Shown here in pieces: positions 4,074 through 32,856 of a stretch of DNA of 32,856 bases. The translations under genes and the position numbers were made by a program. How positions within the stretch are numbered: the stretch's first letter is position 1; every line of letters starts with the position of its first letter. The stretch is taken from positions 1 through 32,856 of IMG/VR virus record IMGVR_UViG_3300020195_000110; one strand, given 5' to 3'. The DNA is from a virus. A model generated the notes under the pieces. The model was not told where the DNA came from. It searched no databases and saw only the letters and a list, made by a program, of their open reading frames with translations.

Positions 4074-5279
4074 ATGGCGCGTGTTCCGCTCGGGATAGGG
4101 GCCTACGACAGAAGCTACGGCAACACTCCGCCCGTTCGCCTCATCAACAGGTTCTTTGAGAAAGACCCAACCAACCTCGTAAACGAGGTGTCGCTGTTCT
4201 CGCGGCCCGGCGCCACGTACCTGGCCCCGTCTGGCCAGAACCCTTTCGTGCGCGGAAACTTCACCCTTGAAGGCGCTTTTGCCGGAGCCCTGTTCACCGT
4301 CTCAGGTACGGGCTTGCAGCGTATGGAGCGTACTCTGGTGCGGCAGGCCATCACAGGCATCGTGCTGGGGGACGGTATCGTCAGCATGGCGGCCACGGCC
4401 ACGACACTTTGGGTCGCCGACGGCTCGAGCCTACAGTTCTATCAGGCCAGCGGGAGCCGCGCGACGGGCACACTCACGGCCACAGGCAACCCCTCCAACA
4501 CGCAGACCGTGACGATAAACGGCGTCGTCTACACGTTCAACACCGTCCTCGGCGGAGCCTACTCCGTCCTGATCGGGGCGACGGCCTCTGAGTCGCTCCT
4601 GAACCTGTCCTACGCGATCAACGCTACCGCCGCGTTCGAGGGGATCAACTACGGCACGGCCACCGTCGTCAACGCCTTCGTCTACGCCGACACTCCCGCC
4701 TCCACGGACCTTATCGTGCGGGCGAAAGTGGGCGGCGTAGCCGGCAACGCCTACACGACCACGGAGACCTCGGGCACCCTGTCTTGGGGCGCTGCGACAC
4801 TCACCGGCGGTGCGGCCAACGCCCTGAGCGGCGTGCAGACCCCCGACGACGTGGGCATCGTGTCCGTGTGCGTGCTGGGCGGCTACACCTTCTGCCTCGC
4901 GGCGGCGGACGAGCTTATCTACTGGATCAACCCCGGCGAGGTGACGATCGACCCTATTAACCGCATTGCTGCGGAAGCGACGCCCGACCAGGGTATCTCG
5001 CTTATCACGGTCGGCGACGTGTTCTACTGTTTCGGAGCGGACAGCACGCAGGTGTTCTACCTGACCGGGGGCGAGGATGTCGTAGCGCCGATCAGGGGCA
5101 GAGCCTTCGCGACAGGCATTCTGGCCGGGACGGAAACTCTTACTCCCACCGGCGACCCGGTAGTTGTCGGATCGGACGGTGTGGTGTACCTAGTTTCCGG
5201 ATCGCCGACGAGAATCTCGAACAACGGTATCGAACAAATTATCCGCCAAGCGCGGGAGATCGAAAGGGCGGCCCCATGA
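4074..5279 (+). CDS. P22 gp10-like packaged DNA stabilization protein, N-terminal half
   Basis: The protein has 401 residues. The start follows the previous stop by three bases. The opening (MARVPLGIGAYDRSYGN, then LINRFFE and SRPGATYLAP) is the typical start of gp10-type tail-hub proteins, which plug the DNA channel under the portal. Repeated beta-blade segments follow (TLWVADGSSLQFY, YTFCLAAADELIYWI, VFYCFGADSTQVFYLTGG) and it ends at SGSPTRISNNGIEQII. In single-gene homologues I recall, RIS-x2-(G/A)IE is followed by a second half that reads the C-terminal propeller. Here that second half appears as the gene at 7407. Residues 131-248 hold one copy of the module also found in the 1450 and 5276 genes, apparently inserted between blades. 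Confidence 0.8.
   Translation: MARVPLGIGAYDRSYGNTPPVRLINRFFEKDPTNLVNEVSLFSRPGATYLAPSGQNPFVRGNFTLEGAFAGALFTVSGTGLQRMERTLVRQAITGIVLGDGIVSMAATATTLWVADGSSLQFYQASGSRATGTLTATGNPSNTQTVTINGVVYTFNTVLGGAYSVLIGATASESLLNLSYAINATAAFEGINYGTATVVNAFVYADTPASTDLIVRAKVGGVAGNAYTTTETSGTLSWGAATLTGGAANALSGVQTPDDVGIVSVCVLGGYTFCLAAADELIYWINPGEVTIDPINRIAAEATPDQGISLITVGDVFYCFGADSTQVFYLTGGEDVVAPIRGRAFATGILAGTETLTPTGDPVVVGSDGVVYLVSGSPTRISNNGIEQIIRQAREIERAAP
4464..4817 (+). repeat. Module copy inserted in the gp10-like protein
   Basis: Residues 131-248 of the gp10-like protein carry TVTINGVVYTFNTVL, SVLIGATASESLLNL and AGNAYTTTET plus SWGAATLTGGA. This is one full copy of the module of the 1450 and 5276 genes. Confidence 0.75.
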
Positions 5280-7393
5280 CAATTAAGTTTCTGGAGAATT
5301 TCGAGACGTTCGGCAACGACACCGACCTCATGCTTGACGGCATCTGGGCCGAGCTCGGCTTCGGGACGACGCTCACGAAGCCGCCGTTCGACACCGAGGG
5401 CCGCTACTGGATCACCTTCCCCGCCAGCATCTCTTTCGTGCGGCGCGTCATCCCCGGCGCTGCGCTCACTGGGGTCGGCTGCTTCCTACGCCCCTATTTC
5501 GAGACGCTGCCCGACACCGCCAACCGCGTCTACATCGCTGTGGTGCGCGACGGTAGCAACGACTCGATCGTGACGCTGCGCCTACAGCCCGACGGGAACA
5601 TCCACGCTTACAACTTCGCCGGCACCCTTGTGGCGCAGACGGCCGCGCCTATTATCCGCGCGGGAACCCTGCACGACATCAAGTTCCAGGCCGTGTTTCA
5701 CCCTACGCTGGGCACCCTCGAGGTTCGCGTCGACGGCGTCGCTGTCATCACAGCCACCAACCTCGTCCTCACTGGCACAGCCGCTCAGATGTATTTCGGC
5801 AGAGGCGCCGCCGGCGCTGGGGGATTCATCACGTGGTATATCAAAGACCTCGCCGTCTGGTCGCTCGCCGGCACGTACAACAGCTCGTGGCCGTCCATCA
5901 CTGGGGTTCTCTCGCTCTATCCCGACTCTGACACGGCTGACGCCGGGTTCACGCCCCGCCCCCGCCAGATCATCGCGGCGGGCGTTCTCATCGTGCCCGG
6001 AAGCGCCTCCGTACTCGACTGCGGAGCAGACGCGGACTACGACCTCGGCGGCGCGGACTTCACGATCGAGACGTTCTACCGCCCCGTCGAGCCTGTCACC
6101 ACGACCAACTTCGGAACGCTCCTCGGCAAGTGGTCGGCGTCTACCGGCAGACGCTCCTATCGCCTCGTCCAGTACGGCCCCGACGTCAACAACGGGGAGC
6201 TGCGGTTCGAGATCACGACGGACGGTACGCTGGCCACGCTGGCCACTGTGCTGGCGCTCAACTACGACTTCCAGACCGGGTACACCTACGCTATCGCAAT
6301 CGAGCGCGAGAGCGACCTGACTCGCATCTACATCAACGGCGTACAGGTTGGCCTGGATGTTGCAGATACCGCGGTCTATTACGCGGCAGCGGCCAACGCC
6401 AAGTTCACCGTCGGCGGCGAGATGTCTGGGGTAGCCACGACGGTTCTCGCCAACTCGTCCGTTAACGCCATCTTTGACGAGGTGAGGATCACCCCCGGCG
6501 TCGCAAGGTACAGCGCCAACTACGCGCCCACCACCACGGCCTACCCCCGCAGCGCGCCCAGCGATCCCAACTTTGCCAGCGTCGTACTGTTGGCCGGGTT
6601 CGACGAGTCCGTCGCCGACGAGAGTTCCTTCGCCCAGACACTCACCGTTCGCGGCACCGCTGCGCGCATCGTCCCCGCTGACAAGCCCTACGAGTTCGAG
6701 ACCGTGGACGCCACCGCCCCGCTGGACGACCGCTATCTCGAGGCTGCGCTGGTGAGCGCCACGGGTATCTTCACGCTCGAGGCTATCCCGGCCAACGCAA
6801 CGACCGTGACGCTCGGGGCCTCCGTCTACACGTTCAACACGGTCCTCGGCGGCGCAGGCTCCGTGCTCATCGGCGTTGACGAGGGCGCCTGTATCGACAA
6901 CCTCGTAGCGGCCATCAACGGCGGCGCAGGCTCGGGAACGCTTTACGGCACCGGCACGGTTGTCAACGCTTCCGCGACCGCTGAGAACGCGCCCACAGCC
7001 CTGCAGCTAACCGCCACGGCCATCGCAGCGGGCACAGCGGGCAACACGATCGCCTCGACAGAGACCGTCACCGGCGGCTCGTGGACGGCTGCAACGCTGG
7101 CTGGCGGCGCTGAGATACCCGCAGTATCGCGGTTCGGGCTTCAGACGCTGCCGGCTGCCGTCACCGGGGTTCGCGCTATCGAGATGCGGAACCGCTCGTA
7201 TGTCGACAACGGCGCGGCGAGCCTGCGAGTATCGTTCCAGGTTGACGCGGTGAACGCCAACGGGGCAGACAACGCGCTCACGAACAACGCGACGTCAAGG
7301 TTCGACATTTTCGAGGAGGACCCCGACACTGTCGCGGCTCTGACCCCGGCGTCTGTCAACAATGGATCGGTTGTTCTGGACCGCACAGCCTAG
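5276..7393 (+). CDS. LamG-domain virion protein (tail or appendage)
   Basis: The protein has 705 residues and starts at an ATG overlapping the previous TGA (ATGA). Two concanavalin A/LamG-like beta-sandwich domains are visible. The first is about 20-200 (LHDIKFQAVFHP, LEVRVDGVAV). The second is about 245-420 (FTIETFYRP, LTRIYINGVQVG, FDEVRITPGVARY), a classic LamG ending. Residues 496-612 are a full copy of the shared module. The C-terminal part ends FDIFEEDPDTVAALTPASVNN, a tail-protein ending I recall from other phage structural proteins. LamG domains commonly bind glycans, so attachment to the cell surface is plausible. It lies between the two gp10-like halves, in one tightly spaced operon. 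Confidence 0.8.
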   Translation: MTIKFLENFETFGNDTDLMLDGIWAELGFGTTLTKPPFDTEGRYWITFPASISFVRRVIPGAALTGVGCFLRPYFETLPDTANRVYIAVVRDGSNDSIVTLRLQPDGNIHAYNFAGTLVAQTAAPIIRAGTLHDIKFQAVFHPTLGTLEVRVDGVAVITATNLVLTGTAAQMYFGRGAAGAGGFITWYIKDLAVWSLAGTYNSSWPSITGVLSLYPDSDTADAGFTPRPRQIIAAGVLIVPGSASVLDCGADADYDLGGADFTIETFYRPVEPVTTTNFGTLLGKWSASTGRRSYRLVQYGPDVNNGELRFEITTDGTLATLATVLALNYDFQTGYTYAIAIERESDLTRIYINGVQVGLDVADTAVYYAAAANAKFTVGGEMSGVATTVLANSSVNAIFDEVRITPGVARYSANYAPTTTAYPRSAPSDPNFASVVLLAGFDESVADESSFAQTLTVRGTAARIVPADKPYEFETVDATAPLDDRYLEAALVSATGIFTLEAIPANATTVTLGASVYTFNTVLGGAGSVLIGVDEGACIDNLVAAINGGAGSGTLYGTGTVVNASATAENAPTALQLTATAIAAGTAGNTIASTETVTGGSWTAATLAGGAEIPAVSRFGLQTLPAAVTGVRAIEMRNRSYVDNGAASLRVSFQVDAVNANGADNALTNNATSRFDIFEEDPDTVAALTPASVNNGSVVLDRTA
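6761..7111 (+). repeat. Module copy in the LamG protein
   Basis: Residues 496-612 carry TVTLGASVYTFNTVLGGA, SVLIGVDEG, DNLVAAING and GNTIASTETVTGGSW. This copy is closest by eye to the one in the gp10-like protein (both share VYTFNTVLGGA). Confidence 0.75.
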
Positions 7394-22978: not shown

Positions 22979-23121
22979 GGCGGGCTCTCTCCTCTAACGT
23001 TCATCCACAGCAAGTGGCACGCCAGCCGGTCCCAGCTCCAGTCCTCAAACCCAGGCCGCGCCTTGAGACGCAGCAGCGCGGAGTTCCACCACTCCCAGAA
23101 GATTTGGAACTCGGGGGTCAT
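22975..23121 (-). CDS. 48-residue Trp-rich small protein
   Basis: ATG 23121 overlaps the methyltransferase stop (ATGA), and its TGA overlaps the next GTG (GTGA). The product begins MTPEFQIFWEWWNSALLRL and has seven Trp residues in 48. There is no recognised family and no clear membrane segment. Start and stop overlaps on both sides make it likely to be translated as a link in the operon. Confidence 0.55.
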   Translation of the reverse strand: MTPEFQIFWEWWNSALLRLKARPGFEDWSWDRLACHLLWMNVRGESPP

Positions 23122-24086
23122 GGACAGCACTCCATGAAGGCCTCTACGAAGCCTTGCGCTTGCGAAGCGTCGAGGGCGTTTCCGTAGGCACGCAGTCGTC
23201 CCACTCGCGCGGTATCCTCATGAGCCAGCGGGAATGTCCCGCTCTCAACCGGCCGATACTTCCCGTCTCGGCAGGGGAGCCAGTCAACCGAGCCTGTTTG
23301 TCCAGGTGGACGTTCCCGCCGCCCTGTGTCTCCGTCGTCCGCCCGCCCGATCCGTCCGTCGCTTTCGGCGTGGCCCATCCCACCAACCAGGCTTGGCGCC
23401 CCAACAGGCCGTTCACCGGCACCGTACCCACCGAGTCGCCGTCCTTGTGGTCCCGCGTCGTCGGCGTAGCCCAGCCGCACAAACTCGCGTCGTGGCTCAG
23501 TGCCCCGACCGCCTGATTCGGACCTCCGTTCGCCCCGTCCGTTGCCCGCGGCGTGTTCCAACCTTTTTGCTCCCCAGTAGAGGCGCTGTCTGATGTGGAA
23601 CCCTTCGTCGCCTTCCTCGGAGGCGAAGCCCGCAGCGCAGGTATCGACCGCCCCGACGGCATAGCCCTCTGCTTCCAGGTCAGCCTGTACACCCTCGAGC
23701 CAACCGAGGCCGTCAGGCGACGCAACCTGCTCGCCAAGGACACCGTCAGGACGGCAGACGCGGATGAGATGGTGGAACGCTGGCCATAGGTGCCGCTCGT
23801 CAGCAACCCCAGCTCTTTTGCCTGCCGCGGAGAAAGGTTGGCAAGGACAGCTTCCGGTCCAGATAGGCCGCTCATCAGGCACGCCAGCTCTGCGGAGGGT
23901 GTGAGACCATATCCCGATTCCGGCGAAGAAATGTGCCTGCGTAAATCCAAGTAGGTCTGTTCCGCGGACATCCTCTATACTCCTCGTGTCGACCTCGCCC
24001 GGCGCGATGTGGCCGGCGGCGATCAGGTTACGCAGCCACTGTGCGGCGAACTCGTCGTGCTCGTTGTAATACGCCGCTATTCGCAC
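23118..24086 (-). CDS. C5-cytosine DNA methyltransferase
   Basis: The protein has 322 residues. The GTG at 24086 follows GGAG at eight bases and gives MRIAAYYNEHDEFAAQWL, the start I recall for this phage family. Motifs: FAGIG (54-58, AdoMet), TGSCPCQPFSAAGK (78-90, with catalytic Cys82 in PCQ), GEQV (119-121, where ENV is usual), RQRLYW (motif VIII), and RLRAYGNAL near the C-terminus. It would methylate cytosine in a specific sequence, most likely protecting phage DNA from host restriction; no partner endonuclease is visible. The target-recognition part (about 185-270) is Gly/Arg-rich. A second long ORF in another frame occupies 23144-23971. It overlaps the polymerase stop by 10 bases. Confidence 0.85.
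   Translation of the reverse strand: MRIAAYYNEHDEFAAQWLRNLIAAGHIAPGEVDTRSIEDVRGTDLLGFTQAHFFAGIGIWSHTLRRAGVPDERPIWTGSCPCQPFSAAGKRAGVADERHLWPAFHHLIRVCRPDGVLGEQVASPDGLGWLEGVQADLEAEGYAVGAVDTCAAGFASEEGDEGFHIRQRLYWGAKRLEHAAGNGRGERRSESGGRGTEPRREFVRLGYADDAGPQGRRLGGYGAGERPVGAPSLVGGMGHAESDGRIGRADDGDTGRRERPPGQTGSVDWLPCRDGKYRPVESGTFPLAHEDTARVGRLRAYGNALDASQAQGFVEAFMECCP
23144..23971 (-). CDS. Overprinted protein within the methyltransferase gene
   Basis: The frame has 275 codons on the same strand, offset by one base from the methyltransferase. ATG 23971 has GAGGAG (minus strand of 23980-23985) eight bases upstream. The product does not look like a random shadow: it has RVYRLTWKQRAMPSGR, then repeated W-x-TP-x-D-x-G units (WNTPRATDGANGG, WATPTTRDHKDGDS, WATPKATDGSGG), NGLLGRQAWL, and HSRWLMRIPREWDDC near the end. 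I recall this set of motifs from uncharacterised phage proteins encoded next to or over cytosine methyltransferases. In the methyltransferase frame the ribosome site uses agg-agt-ata, rare codons here, which suggests the site is selected. The function is unknown. Confidence 0.6.
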   Translation of the reverse strand: MSAEQTYLDLRRHISSPESGYGLTPSAELACLMSGLSGPEAVLANLSPRQAKELGLLTSGTYGQRSTISSASAVLTVSLASRLRRLTASVGSRVYRLTWKQRAMPSGRSIPALRASPPRKATKGSTSDSASTGEQKGWNTPRATDGANGGPNQAVGALSHDASLCGWATPTTRDHKDGDSVGTVPVNGLLGRQAWLVGWATPKATDGSGGRTTETQGGGNVHLDKQARLTGSPAETGSIGRLRAGHSRWLMRIPREWDDCVPTETPSTLRKRKAS

Positions 24087-25969
24087 TTCACCAACTCCCC
24101 CCACGACCGGCCCTGCTTGCCGTCGCTACGCATGGGAACCGAGAGGCGATCGACCTCCATGATCTCGCGCAACAGCGCCATCTGGGCGTCCGCCTTGTCC
24201 TCCGGCGCCGACACGTTGATCTCGTCGTAGACCTGGACGAGAAAGCGCGCCTCGCGGTCAGGGTGCTCGAACCACTCGACGCACGCCTGTTTCGTCAGGT
24301 CCGCGGCGCCGCCCTGCACCAGCGTGTTGAGGCCTCGGTACTCGTAGGTCGTGTAGCGACCCTGCTTCTTGTCGAACCCCGGAGCCTGGCAGTAGTTCAC
24401 CCGGCCGCCCAGTGTGACGATGGGCTCCCCGCGCTTGAACGTCCGTTTGATCTCCCCCTCGAGCGCAGTCTTACCCGGCAGCGCCGACTCGTGGACCCTC
24501 CTAAGCTCCTTGGCCTCGCTCGCCGTTATCTCCAGAGCCTTGGAAAGCGCCGGAACGCCGCCGCCATATAAGCCCTGAAAGTTGAGAACCTTGATAGTGG
24601 TCTTGTCGAACGATCGACCTGCGGCAGCCTCCATAATTGGCCTGACCCACTCGTCATGGGGGTCGAGCATGGGGCTCCGGCAGTAGGCGTCGTTGAGAGG
24701 GCCGCACTCATGGTGGGCAAACACACGCAGCTCTTGTCCCTTAAAGTCACGATGTAGGAAGCGGTGCCCCACATCGGGCAGAACATATTTCCGCACAAGC
24801 GGCAGATTAGGTAGCCCGAGGAACTCAGGGTGAACATATCCGTCTTTCTTGCTCTCGAAATCTTTCGACAGGTTCAGGAAGTTGTGGCTGTTGCACGAAG
24901 GACGCCCGGTGCGCGTGCCGCCTCCCTCGCCTCGGGTCTGGTTCCAGTTGGTGTGGATTGTCCCGCCGGTCTTCTGGGCCTGCTCAAGCCACGGCGCCAT
25001 GAACATGGTCAGGCACGTCTTGAGCCGGTTGCGGTAGCCCAGCGCCGACGCCACGTCGGGGTCGTTGAACATGTGCGCGCGTAGGTTGGCCTTGCTGACG
25101 CTGCGCTGTCCGCTTTCCGTCAGAACCCACTTGTCGTCGTCGACGATACCGCCACGGGACAGGGCTTCCGCCACCTCCTCGTCCGCGTCGAAATTGATCT
25201 CCGGGGTTCCGAGGCGCTGCTTGAGAGCGGCCTCAACTGTCAGAAGGGCGCCTGCGTAATTCTGACAGTCTGTGTCCAGCTTATCGACGTCTACGCGCAT
25301 CCCCAGTCGTTCGTTTTCCATGCACACTTGCAGGAACCGGCGTTCTCGGTCATACGCCTGGCCCATGCCGGCGGCGAGGACTTTGGGGTGCAGGTGCTCG
25401 AACAGGCGGAAGGTGCGCTCGACGTCGCCGATGGCGTAGGGGGCCAGTACCGCGGCGGGGACTTTCGAGAACCAGCGCCAGACATTGTTGACCTTGCCCT
25501 TGGTGCGGCTGATGTCCTCGCCGGGGTAGGCCTCGCGCAGCGCCTTGCGGTGCTCCCATACCCAGTCGCTGACCGCGTCGCGCTCCTCGGGAGGAAGCCC
25601 AAGGATCGCTTCGGCCGCCCGCTTAAGATCGAGGGCCTGGCGGTTCGGATCGTCGAGGAACATCAGGAGCATTGTGTCGTGCTGGCGGCGCCACGGGATA
25701 AGGGGCAGCCCAGCGCCCTCGGTGGCCATCTGGAGGTCGAACTTTATGTTGTGGCATAGGATGGGCCTCCCACTGTCCCAGGCCCACCTGAGCACGCTCA
25801 GGGCGTCCTGGTAGGTGGCGTTGTTGCCGGAGGGATGGCCGAACGCGAGGTACCGCGACGCGTTGTAGCCGTCCTTCACAGCGAGCCCGATGGGTCGCGG
25901 TGGGAAGTTGGGACGCGCCTCTATCGGATGCGACTCCCAGTCGAGCGTTATGACGTCGGCGGCGCGCAT
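24077..25969 (-). CDS. Family A DNA polymerase with 3'-5' exonuclease
   Basis: The protein has 630 residues. Exonuclease motifs: DWE (10-12), CHNIKFD (72-78) and YAIGD (178-182), so proofreading looks intact. Polymerase motifs: TGRPSCNSHNFLNL (about 354-367), motif A DFKGQELR (408-415, usual form DYSQIELR), motif B around KTTIKVLNFQGLYGG (456-470) and motif C VYDE (580-583). Tyr replaces the usual His of motif C. There is no 5'-3' exonuclease domain. It would replicate the phage genome with the primase-helicase encoded upstream. The ATG at 25969 has a weak ribosome site. A 64-base A/T-richer gap separates it from the GapR-like gene. Its stop overlaps the methyltransferase start. Confidence 0.9.
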   Translation of the reverse strand: MRAADVITLDWESHPIEARPNFPPRPIGLAVKDGYNASRYLAFGHPSGNNATYQDALSVLRWAWDSGRPILCHNIKFDLQMATEGAGLPLIPWRRQHDTMLLMFLDDPNRQALDLKRAAEAILGLPPEERDAVSDWVWEHRKALREAYPGEDISRTKGKVNNVWRWFSKVPAAVLAPYAIGDVERTFRLFEHLHPKVLAAGMGQAYDRERRFLQVCMENERLGMRVDVDKLDTDCQNYAGALLTVEAALKQRLGTPEINFDADEEVAEALSRGGIVDDDKWVLTESGQRSVSKANLRAHMFNDPDVASALGYRNRLKTCLTMFMAPWLEQAQKTGGTIHTNWNQTRGEGGGTRTGRPSCNSHNFLNLSKDFESKKDGYVHPEFLGLPNLPLVRKYVLPDVGHRFLHRDFKGQELRVFAHHECGPLNDAYCRSPMLDPHDEWVRPIMEAAAGRSFDKTTIKVLNFQGLYGGGVPALSKALEITASEAKELRRVHESALPGKTALEGEIKRTFKRGEPIVTLGGRVNYCQAPGFDKKQGRYTTYEYRGLNTLVQGGAADLTKQACVEWFEHPDREARFLVQVYDEINVSAPEDKADAQMALLREIMEVDRLSVPMRSDGKQGRSWGELVKCE

Positions 25970-30595: not shown

Positions 30596-30886
30596 CTAGC
30601 AGCCGCGCGGACACCGTTCCTGTTTGAATCCGGTGGCGACCCATCCCGAACCGCGACAGGCTGGGCAGTCGGTCACGGGGAGCGGGGCGCAGCTTAGCAG
30701 GACCTCGCGGGCCTCCTTGAGCGTGGCCATAGACTTCTGGCCCACCATGTCCACGGTCATCGCTCGCCCGTCTGGATGGTGGCGCTTGACCTGCCTCGCG
30801 AACGCCTCGCGCACCTCGCCGGCGCGCGGCGGAGTCCACGGGGACGGGCCGAAGCCCAACACAGTTAGCGCTTCGTCGCGTGTCAT
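30596..30886 (-). CDS. J-domain protein with zinc-finger tail
   Basis: The protein has 96 residues from ATG 30886, starting MTRDEALTVLGF. A J-domain is visible: a helix with VREAFARQVKRHHPDGR, including the essential HPD, and a following helix (MATLKEAREVLLS). The C-terminus has a DnaJ-like zinc finger, CPACRGSGW, followed by CPRGC. J-proteins stimulate Hsp70 ATPase; phages use them to recruit host DnaK in replication or assembly. The start is coupled by ATGA to a tandem micro-ORF. A longer GTG start at 30937 exists but would read through the repeat in another frame. Confidence 0.7.
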   Translation of the reverse strand: MTRDEALTVLGFGPSPWTPPRAGEVREAFARQVKRHHPDGRAMTVDMVGQKSMATLKEAREVLLSCAPLPVTDCPACRGSGWVATGFKQERCPRGC

Positions 30887-30927
30887 CGCGCGACACCCAG
30901 GAACTCGCGGCCTTTGTTCGGTGTCAT
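30883..30927 (-). CDS. 14-residue micro-ORF, second tandem copy
   Basis: ATG 30927 to TGA 30883, encoding MTPNKGREFLGVAR. Its stop overlaps the J-domain ATG (ATGA). Identical to the upstream copy. Product stability unknown. Confidence 0.4.
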   Translation of the reverse strand: MTPNKGREFLGVAR

Positions 30928-30968
30928 CGCGCGACACCCAGGAACTCGCGGCCTTTGTTCGGTGTCAT
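30924..30968 (-). CDS. 14-residue micro-ORF, first tandem copy
   Basis: ATG 30968 to TGA 30924, encoding MTPNKGREFLGVAR. Its ATG overlaps the stop of the 45-residue membrane protein, and GAGGA lies nine bases upstream. Stop/start overlaps run from membrane protein to copy 1, copy 2 and the J-domain gene. Confidence 0.4.
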   Translation of the reverse strand: MTPNKGREFLGVAR

Positions 30969-31102
30969 CGGGTAGCGTCCTCTATTTCGTCAATTACGTA
31001 AGCGTACAGCGTCTCGACCTCTCGCGCCAGTAGGTCGCCCGCCCGGATCAGCGCGACGGCGCCCAGCGCGATCGTGAGGGCAACGGCGACTAGCGCGCGC
31101 AC
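30965..31102 (-). CDS. 45-residue single-span membrane protein
   Basis: GTG 31102 has GAAGGA at six bases. The product starts MRALVAVALTIALGAVALIR (one membrane helix) and has an acidic tail (YVIDEIEDATR). Too short for family recognition. It is inside a run of overlapping small ORFs. Confidence 0.5.
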   Translation of the reverse strand: MRALVAVALTIALGAVALIRAGDLLAREVETLYAYVIDEIEDATR

Positions 31103-31494: not shown

Positions 31495-32856
31495 TCAGGT
31501 CTCAATTTCCGGCCGGTAGTCTTCCCAACGCCGGAACGCGAGCTGCGTCGTGTCGGATTTGACGCGCCAAGTCGATGCCATCGCGGCGTGGCATTCGCGC
31601 CCCGCCTGACCGCCATAGGCATTCGGATCAACCCGCAGCAGGTATCGCTTGTACTCGCCAGTTTTCGGGTCAGGGGTGGAGTCCTGCATGTCCAGCATCA
31701 CCATGGGCTCGTCTTCTGTGAGGTCACGGCGAAGCAGGATCGCATTGCGCAGGCCCATGATCGGATGGTCAGGGCCGCATTTGTCCACGACCGTGAAGTT
31801 GCCTTCACGCGCATAACGAGCGGAGCCAAACAGCGAGATCATGACGCGCCGGACTTCAGCGTTGCGCTCACTGTCGATGCGCTGACCAGTGAGTGCGCTC
31901 GGGGTCTCGTAGATATCAGCCGGCATTCTGACGCCGTGATGGCTGTATATAGACCAGCCATCCGGCCAAACCACAGCCGGGCCACGTTCAGCGTGCAGCT
32001 GGTGGGATCCCCAGCCGCGCGTCTGGCTCGGGTTGCGAGCCTCGCGATTGATGGCTGTTGGACGTTCGCACACAACAATAAAGTCTCGGTGCGGCCACCA
32101 CCAGCAGGCGGATTGGATCGTGTCTTCATAGGCGCGCGCACGCCCCCACAGGTCGCGGGGCAGTTCGAGGCTGCACACTTCCCGAAAAAACGAAGTGAAC
32201 GCGCCGCCCCAGTAATAGCCGCCGACCCAGAACTGACCGCCGATGTAGTTGCTCCAGGAACGCTGGATGACGTTCAGGATCGCGCCGCCAACCGCGTCGC
32301 GAACCGCGCCGCCAACCGCGGCGTTAACCGCGTCGTTAACCGCCCCGCTAACCGCGGCGTCTACCGCGACGCGAACCACGGCGTTAACCGCGCCGCTAAC
32401 CGCCCCGCGAACCGCGCCGCGAACCGCGCCGTCAACCGCGTCGCCAACCGCGTCGTTAACCGCCCCGCGAACCGCGGCGTCAACCGCCCCGCTAACCGCG
32501 GCGTAAACCGCGGCGTCGACCGCGTCGTCGACCGCGCCGCGAACCGCGCCGTCAACCGCGTCGCCAACCGCGTCGTTAACCGCCCCGCGAACCGCGGCGT
32601 CAACCGCGTCGTCTACCGCGACGCGAACCGCGACGCCAACCGCGGCGTTAACCGCCCCGCGAACCGCGCCGCCAACCGCGGCGTCAACCGCGTCGCGAAC
32701 CGCGCCGTCAACCGCGGCGTTAACCGCCCCGCTAACCGCGGCGTAAACCGCGGCGTCGACCGCGTCGTCGACCGCGTCGTCTACCGCGACGCCAACCGCG
32801 CCGCCAACCGCGTCGCGAACCGCGCCGCGAACCGCGCCGCCAACCGCCCCGCGAAC
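31495..32856 (-). CDS. Tetrapeptide-repeat protein with DUF6745-like C-terminal domain (5' end outside window)
   Basis: The frame is open without a stop from the right window edge, so the true start is outside. A GTG at 32379 is the only in-window start-like codon in this frame and sits inside the repeat, so it is probably just a Val/Val variant (unit 9). At least 48 units of Val-x-x-Ala (32281-32856) are followed by about 260 residues: IGGQFWVGGYYWGGAFTSFF, GPAVVWPDGWSIYSHHGVR, ERNAEVRRVMISLFG, then STPDPKTGEYKRYLLRV. I recall this domain as DUF6745, function unknown, often preceded by Val/Ala-rich repeats. A 4-residue period with Val and Ala at fixed places would suit a helix with one greasy stripe. 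Role in the phage unknown. Confidence 0.75.
   Translation of the reverse strand, partial: VRGAVGGAVRGAVRDAVGGAVGVAVDDAVDDAVDAAVYAAVSGAVNAAVDGAVRDAVDAAVGGAVRGAVNAAVGVAVRVAVDDAVDAAVRGAVNDAVGDAVDGAVRGAVDDAVDAAVYAAVSGAVDAAVRGAVNDAVGDAVDGAVRGAVRGAVSGAVNAVVRVAVDAAVSGAVNDAVNAAVGGAVRDAVGGAILNVIQRSWSNYIGGQFWVGGYYWGGAFTSFFREVCSLELPRDLWGRARAYEDTIQSACWWWPHRDFIVVCERPTAINREARNPSQTRGWGSHQLHAERGPAVVWPDGWSIYSHHGVRMPADIYETPSALTGQRIDSERNAEVRRVMISLFGSARYAREGNFTVVDKCGPDHPIMGLRNAILLRRDLTEDEPMVMLDMQDSTPDPKTGEYKRYLLRVDPNAYGGQAGRECHAAMASTWRVKSDTTQLAFRRWEDYRPEIET
32281..32856 (-). repeat. 48 in-register 12-bp tandem units (Val-x-x-Ala coding)
   Basis: 576 bases divide into exactly 48 units with no insertion or deletion, continuing past the window. 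On the coding strand each is GTN, N-(A/G)-C, GNC or GGG, then GCG (once GTG). Six positions of twelve are invariant in all 48. Larger blocks recur: 32413-32484 equals 32533-32604, and 32485-32532 equals 32725-32772. Array growth by block duplication is therefore visible. Confidence 0.95.

Follow-up and report, generated by a model that had tools for sequence, protein, structure and literature searches.

What does a long array of four-residue units do in a phage protein, and how can its units remain diverse while the array itself turns over? The question is raised by the window, that is, the whole stretch of DNA that was analysed, which is an entire viral record of 32,856 bases. On its minus strand, an open reading frame with 453 visible residues and an open 5' end (31495-32856; ORF list, and relatives with a complete reading frame) contains both a 12-bp tandem array and a DUF6745 domain. 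The array (32281-32856, minus strand) consists of 48 in-frame units encoding V-x1-x2-A in the unit table and runs past the contig end. TRF reported a single array at this place, with period 12, 48.0 copies and 0% indels, in agreement with an earlier note on this DNA, which had claimed 48 indel-free units in a constant frame. Because the record stops inside the array, 48 units are a minimum and the gene start is out of view. Directly downstream and in the same frame, the alignment places the array-to-domain junction and the start of the conserved C-terminal part (ILNVIQRSWSNYIGGQFW...) at 32131-32280, followed by the core match to DUF6745 (PF20530) at 31600-32130 (both on the minus strand). This Pfam match (residues 243-419, E 2.3e-32, 112.4 bits against a gathering cut-off of 27) identifies the window protein as a DUF6745 protein, so the proposed attachment of the array to a DUF6745-like domain was correct. 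An ORF on the plus strand (31588-32856) was rejected as a gene; it lies antisense to the array and lacks support.

Inspection unit by unit confirmed that the V-x1-x2-A array is real. Codon 2 is N-A/G-C in every unit, giving R, G, D, N, S and Y, and codon 3 is GNC or GGG throughout, which is the restriction that had been described. Valine is kept in all 48 units, with the silent codon variation that had been pointed out (GTT 41, GTC 4, GTA 3). The parallel claim for alanine holds in 47 units, which end in GCG, and fails in unit 40, where GTG places a V at the end. Recurring blocks of 72 and 48 bases were also found as claimed: units 22-27 are identical to units 32-37, and units 8-11 to units 28-31. 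The exact repetition of six units, compared with matches of at most four in unit shuffles of the same array, supports turnover by whole units.

Relatives were collected by a protein search with the domain, followed by one with an alignment (A1) built from nine of them; this gave 67 viral loci. An array with period 4 is present in 36 of the 37 viral DUF6745 ORFs that are complete, where it lies between DUF6745 and a conserved N-domain with the motif ..RDxWxxxGLxTxPADR..AYxxAG..WxxSP..; one such complete ORF (L010) encodes 549 residues with 47 units. Cellular DUF6745 proteins of Actinobacteria and other bacteria have the same order of N-domain and C-domain, but none of the 79 best homologues carries an array (one MAG contig, itself cut in an array, was left out), whereas the linker of the phage proteins has grown to roughly 11-80 units. 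Among the 59 cellular homologues with a recognisable linker, 33 have one VR[DE]xVR-like motif in it, which is a possible seed of the array. The array is therefore an elaboration across a whole phage protein family and not peculiar to the phage of the window. Matches were found in only 2 of 50,697 records of named phages, and the plasmid collection held only distant DUF6745 proteins. A literature search found no paper naming DUF6745, and the tetrapeptide-repeat module of these phages seems to have been undescribed so far.

A search with the DNA pattern of the units found 70 VxxA arrays, 68 of them inside a DUF6745 protein, and 121 xxQ arrays, 111 of them inside such a protein, so the array is mostly, not exclusively, a DUF6745 module. 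VxxQ arrays without DUF6745 occur in L286, L317 and L329, which share a tail of about 50 residues (SYWAxKVxLGLxIKHWFFDFLKLGxMIV...GKYLGEYDE); an array of this type may be a portable module. Five viral contigs (L159, L186, L190, L206 and L249) have different period-4 repeats, e.g. HGA[V/A], that are unlinked to DUF6745.

The arrays of related phages differ in length, order and residue type. The clearest case is given by four M. abscessus prophages (L014, L068, L069 and L070), which have 46, 19, 62 and at least 21 units, respectively, in differing order. The DNA of their N- and C-domains is identical except for one base in L069 (the N-domain of L070 lies outside its record), and the DNA flanking the array in L014 and L068 (3.6 kb on one side, 2.6 kb on the other) is 99.4% identical. 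Likewise, L018 and L020 have one silent difference in 244 codons, yet their last array units differ. These comparisons show that array length and order change fast through in-frame gain and loss of whole units; the earlier note had suggested that fast length change between isolates may occur. Contingency loci that vary by phase have units that are not a multiple of 3; here the units are 12 bp and the frame is always kept, and a frame-switching repeat was rejected.

Over longer distances the period is kept between phages and the residues are not. The arrays are of the types VxxA, VxxQ, LxxQ, LxxS, VxxS, VxxT and LxxN, always with period 4. Of 5,282 units, 99% have V or L at position 1 and 98% have Q, A or S at position 4. 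On a quick tree of the DUF6745 part, in which 27 of 73 inner branches are open, there were at least 33 changes of the anchor-codon pair and 14 changes of residue type; entire arrays are repeatedly replaced or re-homogenised. These data bear on the idea that the repeat acts as DNA, as a site of recombination, replication or packaging, with an incidental peptide. Such a site would agree with the perfect period, the many copies and the contigs that end there, but it is the peptide pattern that is conserved across phages and not the DNA: 39 different codon frames are used, and V/L and A/Q/S are exchanged. The contig ends follow from assembly, since at least eight contigs have the N-part and the C-part of the gene at opposite ends. 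We regard this as the least probable of the explanations considered here.

The same eight or more contigs both start and end in an array; they are probably complete, with a circular map that was opened within the array and therefore looks linear. They include IMGVR 3300031718_000027, 3300037993_000169, 3300048837_000745, 3300050821_004237, 3300025289_000048, 3300014156_000002, 3300031718_000092 and 3300045410_000071. The array accounts for the frequent breaks of phage contigs at the DUF6745 gene. In 30 of the 67 viral loci the gene is truncated on its 5' side, with the break almost always inside the array, so that the gene and its N-domain are hidden from databases.

What, then, keeps the units diverse? 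Since loci found by the DNA pattern have some bases fixed by construction, the main statistic was restricted to loci found through the DUF6745 protein (60 arrays of at least 10 units, 1,797 units). Synonymous and non-synonymous sites were compared by unit position, as the earlier note had proposed. Mean pi was 0.42 at positions 1-2 of the x1 codon and position 2 of the x2 codon; the four third positions averaged 0.038. Diversity at the x sites exceeded that at third positions in all 60 arrays, and 33 of these had zero variation at third positions. The peptide differed in 82% of unit pairs, whereas the DNA differed in 3.5% of the pairs with the same peptide. The window array falls short of the purity of most others: its third-position diversity is 0.14. 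Codon use does not fix the silent sites, because the third-position consensus differs from array to array (pi 0.44-0.62), and GTT makes up 41 of the 48 Val codons in the window array against 13% in the other genes of the window. The excess over silent sites points to diversifying or balancing selection on x1 and x2, although the arrays share ancestry and the 60 are not independent. The earlier suggestion of a selected scaffold with variable positions is thus supported by the site diversity, and mere tolerance at x1 and x2 is not, since their diversity far exceeds that of silent sites.

A neutral minisatellite, kept in frame only because V and A are under purifying selection, would fit the unit turnover and block duplication, which are plain to see. 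It predicts that silent sites vary as much as x1 and x2, but their diversity was 11 times lower. When unit turnover and mutation were simulated under neutrality, 0 of 274 arrays resembled the real ones, and the order of charges described below is not random; we consider this explanation highly improbable. Targeted mutagenesis of x1 and x2, for instance by a diversity-generating retroelement, would fit variation that is limited to fixed bases of each unit, and is yet harder to believe. Such elements have a reverse transcriptase in the genome, and RVT_1 was found in 0 of 47 array-bearing records (several of them fragments), while the controls matched; moreover, the variable bases extend beyond template adenines, with G/C and A/G alternatives dominating.

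Next we consider how neighbouring units are arranged. Compared with within-array unit shuffles, R-D at x1 of adjacent units (i,i+4) was enriched (z +3.2 and +4.3) and RR and DD were depleted (z -2.9 and -3.7), and in xxQ arrays WW at adjacent x1 was depleted (z -2.6); this set includes loci found by pattern, and the z-scores ignore shared ancestry. The shuffles gave no charge-order effect two units apart. Adjacent x1 residues therefore seem to be close to each other, as on an alpha helix, though a stacked solenoid would also serve. Proline is almost absent (8 of 20,644 residues). AlphaFold drew long helices for the array with low confidence (28-66), which counts against treating any array fold as established, while the N-domain and DUF6745 were predicted with confidence. 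The earlier proposal of a four-residue helix or a bundle thus stands in its helix-like part, through the i,i+4 charge order and the low-confidence AlphaFold helix, and not as a bundle. The arrays keep a strict four-residue period and lack the seven-residue hydrophobic pattern of a heptad coiled coil. Searches for solved relatives found none by sequence and, for the N-domain and DUF6745, no PDB match by fold at E <= 0.001 (best VIA Z 3.4). In BFVD, DUF6745 matched other phage DUF6745 proteins and uncharacterised phage proteins.

These results may be explained as follows, and we hold this explanation to be about evenly balanced between right and wrong: the array would be a fast-evolving module with a rod-like variable surface, whose diversity is selected by a changing partner. 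It would form a long amphipathic helix, or an ordered rod of a similar kind, in which V/L and A/Q/S line one side while x1 and x2 are exposed. Selection would hold the exposed x1 and x2 diverse because the rod meets a partner that itself changes; a factor of the host or of a rival phage, met early in infection, is the most likely candidate. Turnover of units would supply new x1/x2 combinations, much as PRDM9 zinc-finger arrays or TALE repeats change through shuffled units together with selection on a few contact residues. The array would then be a widespread phage route to protein diversification without a retroelement. A more specific idea, which we think unlikely, is that the x1x2 pairs are a readable or escapable code in a modular recognition system of four-residue units, reshuffled by unit turnover without reverse transcriptase.

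The main rival is that the array is a structural spacer: a rod or stalk whose length can be adjusted, in which x1 and x2 need to be mixed only to keep the rod soluble and free of self-association, and which recognises no partner. We regard it as possible, though doubtful. The composition of x1 is stable: G, R and D each account for about 30% in VxxA arrays, as do G, R and W in xxQ arrays. The narrow residue alphabet, stable from phage to phage, could reflect a limit on composition no less than recognition, which counts against the explanation by a changing partner. Alternation of charges and avoidance of WW suit folding and solubility, every array has mixed x1 residues, none using a single one throughout, and array length varies freely. 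But a spacer alone leaves unexplained why diversity at x1 and x2 survives fast homogenisation in every array, since a repeated balanced pair of units would be soluble too.

The array can be compared with known repeat proteins. PRDM9 is built of 84-bp DNA-binding zinc-finger units, in contrast to the 12-bp units of the phage. TAL effector repeats are helical hairpins of 33-35 residues that read DNA and have a repeat-variable diresidue; like them, the phage array has units that are uniform except for a neighbouring pair of variable residues, but its units have four residues and there is no homology. Pentapeptide-repeat proteins form a beta-solenoid with period 5 and resemble the array in that each of their very short units contains a single hydrophobic residue, but the array has a strict period of 4 and helix-like neighbour preferences. 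The zinc-finger array of PRDM9 is a coding minisatellite with high polymorphism and positive selection at the DNA-recognition residues (PMC3890296); to that extent the two arrays are alike in working, without homology. The phage arrays have the homogenised repeats with diversity focused on a few residues that mark PRDM9 and TALE arrays. DNA reading is unlikely, since the arrays are usually net negative; with 164 of 195 arrays of this kind, DNA binding by charge was rejected.

Genes near the array locus encode ParB, RecT, YqaJ, an integrase, a phage metallopeptidase and an HTH protein. In the window, the array gene is the furthest upstream of the leftward genes, which include those of a primase-helicase-like protein and DNA polymerase A. 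From this neighbourhood and position we infer that the array protein is probably non-structural and early. Searches of PHROG, PADLOC and NCBIfam, including defence and anti-defence functions, gave nothing of substance for it; a weak PADLOC match to a nicking endonuclease sits on the array, looks compositional and was rejected. The leftward genes also include a C-5 cytosine DNA methylase-like gene (23118-24104, minus strand), and in L007 a similar reading frame, read by eye, immediately follows the DUF6745 gene on its downstream side. Elsewhere in the window, a small ORF that encodes a zinc-finger-like CPACRGSG motif has at its start a perfect tandem duplication of 41 bp (30880-30970, 2.2 copies). 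On the plus strand, three adjoining and probably structural genes (1450-2928, 4074-5279 and 5276-7393) share a repeated module (..TVTIGTTVYTY..LIGA..AINGG..) with 24-46% identity, and the third has an additional Laminin_G_3 match.
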